A program made the translations under genes and the position numbers. The notes under the pieces are model-generated. The model was not told the DNA's origin, searched no databases, and was given only the letters and a program-made list of their open reading frames with translations. Shown here piece by piece: positions 2,704 through 12,431 of a stretch of 64,000 nucleotides of DNA; position 1 is the stretch's first letter; each line of letters begins with the position of its first letter. The stretch comes from Haliea salexigens DSM 19537 (GTDB lineage: Bacteria > Pseudomonadota > Gammaproteobacteria > Pseudomonadales > Halieaceae): NCBI RefSeq assembly GCF_000423125.1, contig NZ_AUHJ01000008.1, forward strand, positions 124,001 through 188,000, read 5' to 3'.

Positions 2704-3411
2704 TTACCCGCACTTGGAATCGGCACAGTTGAGACAGGTCATGCAGCCATCCATCAACACCACGGCCTGGGTGTTGCACTTGTAACAGAGGCTGGCACCG
2801 GGCGGGAAGGCGGGTGCATCGCCTGCCGCCTCGTCCGCGGCCCCATTGGCGCTCTCGCCCATGAGCTCGCGGCGTTTTTCCTCGAGGAATTTCTGCTGGT
2901 GTTCATCCAGCTTGCTGTCGATAAGGCCGATGTGCTTCATGTGGTCTTCGATGGCATAGCCAATCTCCGCCACGATCGATGGCATGAACACCCCGCCTTT
3001 CTTGAAGTAGCCGCCGCGCGGATCGAACACCGCCTTCAATTCCTCTACCAGGAAGGTGGCATCGCCACCTTTACGGAATACCGCGGAAATCAGGCGGGTG
3101 AGGGCAACCACCCACTGAAAGTGCTCCATGTTCTTGGAGTTGATGAACACCTCGAAGGGCCGGCGCAGCTCATGCTCGGTACCCTCGTTGAGAATCACGT
3201 CGTTCACCGTAATGTAGAGCGCATGCTCGGACATCGGCGTCTTGACCTTGTAGGTCGACCCCACAAGACGCTCGGGGCGCTGGAATGCCTCGTGCATGTG
3301 CACCACGTTGCTGGCCGGCACTGCCTCGCGGTCGCCGGACACCGGTTCCGGCGTTGCGCCCTTGGGCACCACCTTATAGCCTACTATTTTGCTGCCAATC
3401 TTGACCGTCAT
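2704..3411 (-). CDS. nrdJb: Class II ribonucleotide reductase, C-terminal subunit NrdJb
   Basis: A 235-residue protein matching the C-terminal part of vitamin B12-dependent ribonucleotide reductase, separately encoded as in Pseudomonas. It carries the TSCPD-type region (residues about 55-150, with VALTRLISAVFRKGGD). It ends in a cysteine-rich tail, CYKCNTQ...CMTCLNC...CG, expected to bind zinc and shuttle reducing equivalents to the active site. The ATG at 3411 follows nrdJa by 14 bases with a GGAGA ribosome site. The protein acts with NrdJa to make deoxyribonucleotides from ribonucleotides with adenosylcobalamin as radical source. Confidence 0.9.
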   Translation of the reverse strand: MTVKIGSKIVGYKVVPKGATPEPVSGDREAVPASNVVHMHEAFQRPERLVGSTYKVKTPMSEHALYITVNDVILNEGTEHELRRPFEVFINSKNMEHFQWVVALTRLISAVFRKGGDATFLVEELKAVFDPRGGYFKKGGVFMPSIVAEIGYAIEDHMKHIGLIDSKLDEHQQKFLEEKRRELMGESANGAADEAAGDAPAFPPGASLCYKCNTQAVVLMDGCMTCLNCADSKCG

Positions 3412-3425
3412 CGCTGTCTCCGGGC

Positions 3426-6400
3426 TCAGAACTTGCCGTAATAACCTTCTTTCAGGGCATCGAACAGATTCGCGGCCGTGTGCATTTCGCCGTCGTACTC
3501 CACCTGTTCATTGCCTTTCAGCTCCACCGTGGAACCATCCTCCAGTGTGAACTGGTAGAGCGTATTCTCGAGGTCCTGCTCTTTCACCAGCACGCCCTGG
3601 AATGCCTCGGGGTTGAAGCGGAACGTGGTGCAGCCCTTCAAGCCCTCGCCGTGGGCGTACAGGTAGATGTCCTTGAAATCCTCGAAGGGATAGTCCGTGG
3701 GGACATTGGCGGTTTTGGAGATGGAGGAATCCACCCACTTTTGCGCCGCCGCCTGGATATCCACGTGCTGCTTGGGGGTCACGGCGTCGGCCACGATGAA
3801 GTAGTCGGGGAGCTTCTCCTCGTCATGCTCGCTGTAGGGCATGGCGCGGGGGTTCACCAGGCTGCGATAGGCCAGCAGTTCGAAGGAGAACACGTCCACT
3901 TTTTCTTTTGTCTTGCGCCCGGAGCGAATCACGTTGCGGGCGTAGTGGTGCGCGAAGCTGGGCTCGATGCCATTGCTGGCGTTATTTGCCAGCGACAGTG
4001 AAATGGTGCCCGTGGGCGCAATCGACGAGTGATGGGTAAAGCGCGCACCGCGCTCCGCCACGCGCTCCACCAGCTCCGGCGCCACCGCGGCAACGCGCTG
4101 CATGTAGCGGCTGTAACGCGCATGCAGGACCCGCCCTGGCAGGCGGTCACCCACGGCAATGCCGTCGCGCTGCATTTCCGGGCGCGCCGCCAGCATTTCG
4201 GGTGTGACCTCGAACAGGTCGTCCATGATCGGCGCAGGGCCTTTTTCCTCGGCCAGTTGCACACCCTGTTCCCAACCCACCAGCGCCATTTCTCGCGCCA
4301 CTTCCTCAGTGAAGGTCAGGGAATCTTCATCGCCGTAGCACATGCCGAGCATGGTGATGGTAGACCCCAGGCCCAGGAAACCCATACCGTGACGACGCTT
4401 GTAGGCGATCTCATGGCGCTGCTGCTCCAGCGGCAGACCGTTGATCTCCACCACGTTGTCAAGCATGCGGGTAAACACGGCGACCACATCGCGATAGCGA
4501 TCCCAGTCGAACCGGGCCTTGTCGGTGAACGGGTCCAGCACCAGGCGGGTCAGGTTGATGGACCCCAGCAGGCAGCTGCCGTAGGGGGGGAGGGGTTGTT
4601 CGCCGCAGTTGTGGGCGTGCAGGCCATTGGCGTCAAAGGTATTGATGCCCGGAACCTGCACGTCGTACACATCCTCCACGCCATCCGCTTCGACAGCCGC
4701 CACAGTGGCGACAAAGCGCTCCCTGTTCAAACGCCGTTCGTAGCGCGCCAGCGCCTCGTCCAATCGCGCCTGTTTGGCCGTGTCGGCAAAACCTACGCGT
4801 TGCGCGAATTCAGCCATGTTGGCGCCGCTGATCACCAATTCGTGCTGCGCACGGGTGGGATACAGAGCACTGCCGCCACGACCGTCGGGCAGCAAGGCCT
4901 CGCCCGCGGCTCGGCGCTCGCGGTACAGGGTAGAGTTGATACCCAGACGCAAAAGCATGCGCTGCACCGCCTCCAGTGTGGCAACGTTCGACTGTGCCAG
5001 CCGCACGCTGACACCCTTGGCCTGAGAACCCTGGACCGAGCCATCGGCATCAAACAGGCCGCGCAACAGGCCGCAGTGGAAATCGCTGGAAGACGTCTCC
5101 ACCTGCGGCGTAATGGCTTTTGCGCCCGGTGTCATGCCGAGCCCATGTGCCAGTTGGCGCAGTGCGCCGGTCGCAAGCCGGTATTCGTCGCGCCCTGCCA
5201 CTTTCTGCCAACCGGCAAAATCGGCGCGGTGCGGCAGGCTGCGCGCAGCTGCCAGCGCTGCGGCCATGACCCCTTCCACCCCGTCGGCGCAGCCACCCTC
5301 ATTGACTGCAAGGGGGCGGGTCCACACCGAGAGCACGGCCTTGTCCGCCTTCAACGTGCCATCGCCAATCAGCAGCCCGATCAGGTAACCCTCGTCACGA
5401 GTATAAGCGCCGGGCCACTGTGCGGCACTGCGGTGGTCGTTGAGCAACACCTGGTCGCCGGGAGACAGTTCGCCCGCTGCGCACCATTCGGTTTCCACGC
5501 GCCAGCGATTCAGGCTGGAGACGCGACGCACACGGTGGTCGGCAGTAAGGCGCAGCGCCGGCCCTTCCCGGGTCTGCAAACGAACAACGGGTTTGGTTGC
5601 GGTGCGGAAAAAGCCTTCCGCGCCACTGGCGTGGTCACAGCCGTCCACACGCGCAAGAAAAGGAGAGCCTGTGAGCGCGGCAACCTGCCGGGGACCTTCG
5701 CCGGTCTGCACCCAGGTATCCGCAGTGACACAGGGATTGGTCGCGCGGATATCTTCCAGCCACCAGTTGTTGTTCATCTGGTTGACGCGGTCGATGAGAA
5801 TGAAGCCCGGCTCGGCGAAGTCGTAGGTCGAGGCCATGATCATGTCCCACAGCCGGCGCGCCGGGACGGTCTTGTAGATGCGGCACGCCACCTCACCCCG
5901 GTCATTGCTGACGTAACCCTGGGTGACCGGGAAGTGCCGCCACACAATGCTGCTGTCGTTCTGCAGGTCGAGCCCGGCGCCCTCCACTTCTTTCACCGTC
6001 ATGGGGAAGCTCAGCGCCCAGTCCGCCTCCGCCTTCACCGCTTCGATAAACTCATCGGTAATCAGCAGGCTCAGGTTGAACTGCCGCAACCGGCCGTCTT
6101 CGCGCTTGGCGCGAATAAAGTCCATGACATCGGGGTGGTGGATATCGAAGGTGCCCATCTGGGCGCCGCGACGCCCGCCGGCCGAGGAAACGGTAAAACA
6201 CATGCGGTCGTAGATATCCATGAAGGACAGCGGGCCAGAGGTGTAAGCCCCTGCACCACTCACGTAAGCACCGCGCGGACGCAGGGTGGAGAACTCGTAG
6301 CCGATGCCACAGCCGGCCTTGAGCGTCATGCCCGCCTCGTGGTTTTTCTGCAGGATGTCATCCATGGAGTCAGTGATGCTGCCAGACACCGTGCAGTTGA

Positions 6401-6698
6401 TGGTGGAGGTGGCGGGCTTGTAGGCCTCGGCGCCGGCATTGGAAATGATGCGGCCGGCAGGCAGTGCACCATTCTGCAGAGCCCACAGGAAGCGCTGGTA
6501 CCACTGTTTGCGTGCAGCGTCGGTGTCTTCAACGTCCGCAAGCGCACGGGCGATGCGTTTCAGGGTGTCGGCGATGTCCTTGTCGACCGGCTCGCCAGTG
6601 CGGTCCTGGAGGCGGTATTTCTTGTCCCAGATATCCAGCGATGCGTCCTGCAACCCGATATCGACCACCGTGTGTAACGCCTTGACCACTTCTCCCAT
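3426..6698 (-). CDS. nrdJa: Class II (adenosylcobalamin-dependent) ribonucleotide reductase catalytic subunit NrdJa, intein-containing precursor
   Basis: The precursor has 1090 residues from ATG 6698, which has an AAGAGG ribosome site. The longer frame from 6803 would begin inside a regulatory palindrome and is rejected. Residues 1-322 and 698-1090 are the exteins: the first conserved cysteine in STINCTVSGS, the glycine-rich KAGCGIGYEF, then TNP joined to CGEQPLPPYGSCLLGSINL, which holds the N-x-C-x-E radical triad. Residues 323-697 are an intein. The spliced enzyme would be about 715 residues and depends on NrdJb for the C-terminal cysteines. It reduces ribonucleotides using a cob(II)alamin/thiyl radical and needs no oxygen. 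Confidence 0.93.
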   Translation of the reverse strand: MGEVVKALHTVVDIGLQDASLDIWDKKYRLQDRTGEPVDKDIADTLKRIARALADVEDTDAARKQWYQRFLWALQNGALPAGRIISNAGAEAYKPATSTINCTVSGSITDSMDDILQKNHEAGMTLKAGCGIGYEFSTLRPRGAYVSGAGAYTSGPLSFMDIYDRMCFTVSSAGGRRGAQMGTFDIHHPDVMDFIRAKREDGRLRQFNLSLLITDEFIEAVKAEADWALSFPMTVKEVEGAGLDLQNDSSIVWRHFPVTQGYVSNDRGEVACRIYKTVPARRLWDMIMASTYDFAEPGFILIDRVNQMNNNWWLEDIRATNPCVTADTWVQTGEGPRQVAALTGSPFLARVDGCDHASGAEGFFRTATKPVVRLQTREGPALRLTADHRVRRVSSLNRWRVETEWCAAGELSPGDQVLLNDHRSAAQWPGAYTRDEGYLIGLLIGDGTLKADKAVLSVWTRPLAVNEGGCADGVEGVMAAALAAARSLPHRADFAGWQKVAGRDEYRLATGALRQLAHGLGMTPGAKAITPQVETSSSDFHCGLLRGLFDADGSVQGSQAKGVSVRLAQSNVATLEAVQRMLLRLGINSTLYRERRAAGEALLPDGRGGSALYPTRAQHELVISGANMAEFAQRVGFADTAKQARLDEALARYERRLNRERFVATVAAVEADGVEDVYDVQVPGINTFDANGLHAHNCGEQPLPPYGSCLLGSINLTRLVLDPFTDKARFDWDRYRDVVAVFTRMLDNVVEINGLPLEQQRHEIAYKRRHGMGFLGLGSTITMLGMCYGDEDSLTFTEEVAREMALVGWEQGVQLAEEKGPAPIMDDLFEVTPEMLAARPEMQRDGIAVGDRLPGRVLHARYSRYMQRVAAVAPELVERVAERGARFTHHSSIAPTGTISLSLANNASNGIEPSFAHHYARNVIRSGRKTKEKVDVFSFELLAYRSLVNPRAMPYSEHDEEKLPDYFIVADAVTPKQHVDIQAAAQKWVDSSISKTANVPTDYPFEDFKDIYLYAHGEGLKGCTTFRFNPEAFQGVLVKEQDLENTLYQFTLEDGSTVELKGNEQVEYDGEMHTAANLFDALKEGYYGKF
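4608..5732 (-). mobile_element. Intein with LAGLIDADG homing endonuclease inside NrdJa
   Basis: A 375-residue insertion begins at Cys (CVTADTWV, codon 5730-5732) and ends at Asn (GLHAHN, codon 4608-4610). The next residue is Cys of CGEQ. Block B is LRLTADHRV, with the T-x-x-H motif. The two LAGLIDADG motifs are GYLIGLLIGDGTL and LLRGLFDADGSV, both with their acidic residue. Block F/G is VYDVQVPGINTFDANGLHAH-N. All residues for self-splicing (Cys1, block B His, His-Asn, Cys+1) are present, so it should be active. It sits immediately before the thiyl-radical cysteine of the host enzyme. Confidence 0.93.

Positions 6699-9992: not shown

Positions 9993-12431
<2,439 letters not shown>

Follow-up and report, generated by a model that had tools for sequence, protein, structure and literature searches.

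The interrupted nrdJa gene and its intein

The window analysed here, the whole 64,000-nt stretch of contig NZ_AUHJ01000008.1 from Haliea salexigens DSM 19537 (whose own genome is labelled G000), carries on its minus strand an interrupted nrdJa gene (3426..6698) encoding the catalytic subunit of a split class II ribonucleotide reductase (RNR). The host protein was identified by Pfam (Ribonuc_red_lgC, E=8.6e-121) and NCBIfam (NrdJ_Z, 541.9 bits vs a cut-off of 399.95); its start was predicted at the ATG at 6696-6698 (minus strand), and the frame stays open further upstream. The N-extein (5733..6698, minus strand) ends in RATNP, while the C-extein (3429..4607, minus strand) begins with CGEQPLPPYG. 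Next on the minus strand is nrdJb (2704..3411), the split enzyme's second piece, which encodes a TSCPD domain and a cysteine-rich tail. The locus therefore has the make-up of a split class II RNR: a NrdJa with NPCxE, then a NrdJb with TSCPD and C-terminal cysteines. In gammaproteobacteria the split NrdJa is the usual form, according to the available portion of PMC4520616.

A gene for a sigma-54 activator-like protein (1444-2697) lies directly downstream of nrdJb on the strand shared with it, and past this gene come a protein that Pfam did not match (816-1553) and, at 300-707, a response regulator; gyrB (9996-12410, minus strand) is found ~3 kb upstream of nrdJa. Within the window, neither a B12 riboswitch nor any other known RNA was matched by Rfam at the gathering threshold. 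Elsewhere G000 also encodes class Ia NrdA and NrdB. Searches for NrdD gave no match in G000 nor in the genome of its congener G007, and thus, of the reductases found, NrdJ alone is oxygen-independent in G000 and probably also in G007.

Between TNP and CGEQ lies an intein of 375 residues (4608..5732, minus strand), which starts with Cys1 (codon at 5730-5732), ends with His374-Asn375 (last Asn at 4608-4610) and is followed by the +1 Cys (4605-4607); none of its 375 codons is a stop. The N-terminal splicing (HINT) part, with limits drawn by eye from the structural model, covers residues ~1-110 (5403..5732, minus strand) and includes T63-A-D-H66 (5535-5546, minus strand). The LAGLIDADG endonuclease part, likewise delimited by eye, covers residues ~112-330 (4743..5399, minus strand) and holds two motifs, each with an acid at the catalytic place: LIGLLIGDG (5358..5384, minus strand; D124) and, as located by the intein alignment, LRGLFDADG (5040..5066, minus strand; D230). 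The C-terminal splicing part (residues ~338-375; 4608..4721, minus strand) ends in NGLHAHN.

When the insert was scanned alone, Pfam returned LAGLIDADG_3 (E=2.8e-23) and Intein_splicing (E=1.2e-9, 38.7 bits vs a cut-off of 35.8), the latter scoring 35.1 bits, slightly under its cut-off, in the whole protein; the short NCBIfam intein models both scored below cut-off (intein_Nterm, 16.9 vs 24.5 bits; intein_Cterm, 13.3 vs 15.6 bits). Residue conservation was counted over 81 aligned inteins, i.e., that of the window plus the best 80 of 101 related loci: C1, T63, H66, D124, D228, D357 and N375 were kept in all 81, and H374 and D230 in 80 of them. All residues of a class 1 intein are present (C1, T63-x-x-H66, H374-N375 and the +1 Cys; the motif names block A and block B follow PMC7765530, in the portion available). 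Thus codons, Pfam matches and motifs confirmed the initial annotation in its reading of a full-length 375-residue LAGLIDADG intein, with exact coordinates and frame, and both endonuclease acids, which it had described as retained, are indeed so in the window's intein and in at least 80 of the 81 aligned.

An AlphaFold2 model built from 31 aligned inteins had a mean pLDDT of 92.5 and a pTM of 0.91. In Foldseek this predicted model matched the TliVMA intein (6.2e-18), PI-PfuI (8.3e-15) and PI-SceI (1.9e-12), and its endonuclease part matched I-DmoI; the predicted fold thus matches the known HINT/LAGLIDADG intein type. By sequence, PDB yielded short matches only, the best being DnaB and RecA inteins (lowest E=6e-4).

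In an alignment with Thermotoga maritima NrdJ (chain 1xje), the first residue of the C-extein falls on residue 322, which we take to be the thiyl-radical cysteine. Moreover NPCxE around the catalytic cysteine is the class II finger-loop motif, found in 3,175 of 3,347 sequences (PMC9669993, available portion), and the +1 codon (4605..4607, minus strand) falls within such a loop, NPCGE. From the 1xje alignment and the finger-loop motif, the +1 splicing nucleophile and the radical cysteine are one and the same residue; the insertion at TNP/CGEQ is, as first proposed, exactly in front of it.

Empty sites and distribution of the intein

Distribution of the intein among near relatives is patchy. In a set of 117 genomes (own included), a full or nearly full NrdJa was found in 41, and the intein was absent from 36 of these; the five carriers are G000, G004, G010, G024 and G055. 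Within the genus, seven of the eight genomes have nrdJa and two of the seven have the intein. The junction was read in 13 genomes: five carry the intein, while eight (G007, G001, G003, G005, G006, G017, G021 and G096) show an uninterrupted TNP-CGEQ. This comparison with intein-free relatives, which the initial annotation had proposed as a check, gave the opposite of what is expected if the segment belonged to the folded enzyme.

The closest contrast is with G007, in which GCGACCAATCCC runs without interruption into TGTGGCGAACAA. Its exteins are 98.5% (N-extein) and 99.2% (C-extein) identical to those of G000, and the 94 of 2,148 extein bases that differ (4.4%) are scattered over the whole length. 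In blastn, blocks of 4.2 and 6.6 kb abut at the junction, leaving one clean 1,125-bp insertion in G000. Two Haliea records carry double labels (G004 is L048, and G024 is L003), and G004 is congeneric with the window. At positions -4 and +26 from the junction G000 agrees with G007 and differs from G004; at -34, -13 and +2 it agrees with G004 and differs from G007, but other intein-free congeners share those bases. A co-conversion tract from a G004-like donor thus found no support in the flanking bases of the three genomes and their congeners.

A scan of one genome per species detected 101 relatives of the intein, of which the best 80 were examined. All 80 occupy the site TNP/C...N/C(G or A)EQ, and the intein ends in His-Asn in 79 of these best 80 of 101 loci and in Ser-Asn in one (L077). 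Placement at the radical cysteine is therefore a family property of window-type inteins. Calling this placement notable, as had been done at first, overstates it: the site is shared by 80 of 80 (best 80 of 101), the split NrdJa is the usual form, and a NrdJa intein in this position was already reported in 2015 (see below).

Hosts among the best 80 of 101 include Pseudomonadota and Bacillota. Across these 80 loci the inteins are 48-83% identical to that of the window, while host identity is 36-46% in Gallionellaceae, Acidovorax, Azospirillum and Roseovarius and falls to 25-30% in Moorella and other Bacillota-type rows; in Moorella, for example, the inteins are 60-62% identical to the window's and the exteins only 28-30%. 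Such excess of intein over extein similarity indicates lateral spread.

Trees were built by a quick method from 82 extein and 83 intein rows (L072 being too short for the extein tree), and the two broadly agree. The branch parting 47 NrdJa-type rows from the rest measured 3.27 changes/column in the extein tree vs 0.19 in the intein tree, a comparison that, like the extein tree itself, carries long-branch warnings (long branches meet). L020, L023 and L026 stand together in the extein tree but were rejected as an intein clade (p-AU 0.013; AU test on 72 rows after removal of 11 divergent or short ones, with a group picked when the trees were already at hand). Within Halieaceae, on the other hand, the intein tree is without conflict with the extein tree: the window groups with L048 (SH-aLRT 90-91), and L127 stands next to this pair at 81 in the 72-row tree, its place being without resolution in the 83-row tree. 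The dS between G000 and G004 is also alike for intein (1.12) and extein (0.94). In this family, inheritance of an older intein followed by losses is thus as good an explanation as recent homing.

Among viral sequences, 21 IMG/VR loci were retrieved, and junctions were read in eight of them. One is a viral NrdJ relative at 42% identity (L131), 12 are of SPbeta type at 25-27%, and the other eight are short matches to other inteins. Named phage and plasmid records added 17 phage and two plasmid matches, all below 60% identity. Carriage of the window clade itself by phage was therefore rejected, since viral, phage and plasmid matches are all distant (<60%). In three viral contigs (L145, L146 and L150) a 1,383-residue ORF holds two intein-like inserts, each ending in VHN and followed by Ser, and in L143 and L144 a viral ORF, by eye a putative phage terminase, holds an intein-like insert ending SHN/T.

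Other inteins at and near the RNR radical cysteine

The taxonomic class was sampled evenly with 369 genomes, and in 174 of them the C-extein of NrdJa found a match at E<=1e-60. At least 26 of the 369 genomes hold a member of the window clade (53-100% identity), at 27 places or more; 22 of the 26 are among the 174, and for five of these 22 (G000, G376, G449, G451 and G373) the junctions were read, the rest being full-length matches with long open frames. A second intein clade occupies the same NrdJ codon: its members are 26-34% identical to the window's intein and end in Gln (TGQ, TAQ or SGQ), not His-Asn. It was found in at least nine further NrdJa genomes plus one unsplit NrdJ (G222) and G384; the last was missed by the identity search, and the clade counts are therefore lower bounds. 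Junctions of the second clade were read at L152-L159, L161, L169 (start masked) and L174. At L174 (G384), a His replaces the acid in the first endonuclease motif.

In a quick tree of 30 inteins the second clade stands away from that of the window and joins two SPbeta-type inteins of NrdE (SH-aLRT 94, not starred), yet this join is not secure because L160 is a long branch and the SPbeta-type rows have an odd letter make-up. The viral NrdJ L131 carries its window-type intein (42%) at the radical-cysteine site.

Neighbouring positions are occupied as well. A further intein sits at LKAG/C...HN/CGIGYEF in 11 of the NrdJa loci retrieved (L152, L153, L156, L162, L163, L165, L166 and L170-L173). Alongside it, the NrdJa of G262 and G468 (L170 and L171) has an intein at PPYGA/C...HN/CLLGS; this intein stands immediately in front of the next conserved cysteine, which aligns with T. 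maritima NrdJ 333 and is probably one of the redox-active pair. In the class Ia NrdA of G255 (L160) an intein lies one codon past the radical cysteine (SNLC/C...KN/TEITLN), and the same genome carries a window-clade intein in an unsplit NrdJ (L167).

These cases raise the possibility, to which we give somewhat less than even credence, that the finger-loop cysteine of RNR is an intein harbour across enzyme classes. On this tentative reading at least two deeply separated clades share one codon, and one of them has both class II (NrdJa) and class Ib (phage NrdE) hosts; other inteins stand in front of a conserved cysteine nearby or a codon past the radical one, and several use the enzyme's conserved cysteines as nucleophiles; transfer between classes would rest on the N-x-C-x-E codons. 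The presence of several intein lineages at the radical or a neighbouring conserved cysteine bears on the preference of inteins for catalytic residues, which may arise because the host cannot lose or alter such a target and the target supplies the nucleophile.

Splicing, homing and comparison with known systems

We are confident that the insert is an intein of full length that includes a LAGLIDADG homing endonuclease of its own and belongs to the family of the class II RNR finger loop, and, judging from its sequence, it is probably an active and ordinary representative of a known, widely spread kind. From this anatomy we infer splicing, endonuclease cutting and transfer by homing. At the protein level the intein would excise itself by the ordinary four-step reaction: an acyl shift at Cys1, attack by the +1 Cys, cyclisation of Asn375 and a final acyl shift, giving an intact NrdJa in which the +1 Cys would then serve as radical cysteine. 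On the DNA, an nrdJ without intein would be cut by the endonuclease where the TNP and CGEQ codons are joined, and repair of the cut would copy the intein in. Since these codons rank with the most constrained of the enzyme, targets would be available in many lineages, and imprecise loss would inactivate the enzyme. For the single congener pair G000/G004 (dS ~1.1, near saturation), dN/dS was 0.088 in the endonuclease part, 0.104 in the splicing part and 0.064 in the extein; such purifying selection suggests that the endonuclease is kept, and the earlier suggestion that homing may still occur is plausible.

Three other explanations were weighed. The view that the 375-residue segment is an insertion folded with the enzyme fits its being in frame and GC-rich like the host (65.1% vs 61.5%; third codon positions 71.5% vs 80.9%), but the eight intein-free alleles already refute it, the intein motifs and predicted fold oppose it, and the radical loop would be split by such an insertion; we assign it virtually no probability. 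An old intein, passed on vertically in Halieaceae with a dead endonuclease and made patchy there by loss only, is unlikely but deserves more weight: the intein and extein trees without conflict for the window, L048 and L127 and the similar dS of both parts argue for it, while the endonuclease domain is complete and retains its two acids, selection in the compared pair is purifying, and the intein is widely spread across NrdJ types.

The initial annotation had further suggested that splicing could control dNTP synthesis or work on it as a redox switch, whereby oxidation or another signal would slow splicing so that active NrdJ forms only when conditions suit. It follows from the insertion site that before splicing the radical cysteine is not in place, and in G000, where no NrdD was matched, no oxygen-independent reductase besides NrdJ was found. 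Precedents are consistent with the idea: the A. aeolicus NrdB intein affects maturation of an RNR subunit (PMC8772380, available portion), mycobacterial DnaB inteins splice conditionally (PMC6195587 and PMC7360933, available portions), and in an intein precursor a disulfide joining the catalytic cysteines is on record, as far as a reference title tells. With Cys1 and the +1 Cys both present, a disulfide between them is possible. A cysteine within the last 10 residues of the N-extein is absent from the window and present in 67 of 80 relatives (best 80 of 101). A redox trap via extra intein cysteines found no support, as none but Cys1 is conserved in the 81 inteins (C84 in 44 of 81, C32 and C220 in three each, C148 in one). 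Besides these cysteine counts, several observations speak against a switch: i) the intein is missing from 36 of 41 NrdJa genomes, including G007 with its 99% identical C-extein and no NrdD match; ii) the host also has class Ia NrdAB; iii) in the single congener pair, the endonuclease and the splicing part are under equally strong purifying selection, which fits a homing element. The regulatory reading is thus without support so far, and we regard it as very improbable. The window offers one more well-documented case of a known intein kind, for which a near relative supplies the empty allele, and G000 and G007, with and without the intein, form a natural pair for testing cost or regulation.

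Among known systems, the best NCBIfam match of the intein alone is PRK08332 (E=4.4e-18, residues 42-375; far under the cut-off set for the whole protein, as a part of it would be), which we take to be a profile of the thermococcal-type B12-dependent RNR containing several inteins. In class Ib, SPbeta-type NrdE inteins, whose junctions were read from two IMG/VR contigs (L132 and L136), occupy the homologous codon (SNL/C...TGN/CSE) and, like that of the window, stand before the radical cysteine; they differ in their class I host, in lacking the penultimate His and in being deeply split from the window clade, and named SPbeta-like phages match the intein at 24-25%. In the available portions of the literature searched we found no statement that this NrdJ intein precedes the radical cysteine, although one may be in print. 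A close published counterpart is the NrdJa intein of Azotobacter chroococcum NCIMB 8003 (Achr_580, residues 321-690; PMC4465626, 2015, available portion), which by description rather than by sequence resembles that of the window in position, length and LAGLIDADG_3 domain; according to the same source it is missing from the A. vinelandii orthologue. In Aquifex aeolicus NrdB a LAGLIDADG intein likewise lies within an RNR active site, but there it interrupts the radical-generating subunit, between iron ligands, and its splicing was shown experimentally (PMC8772380, available portion). The intein-containing construct of that enzyme was twice as active, and by analogy an effect of the Haliea intein on NrdJa maturation is possible.
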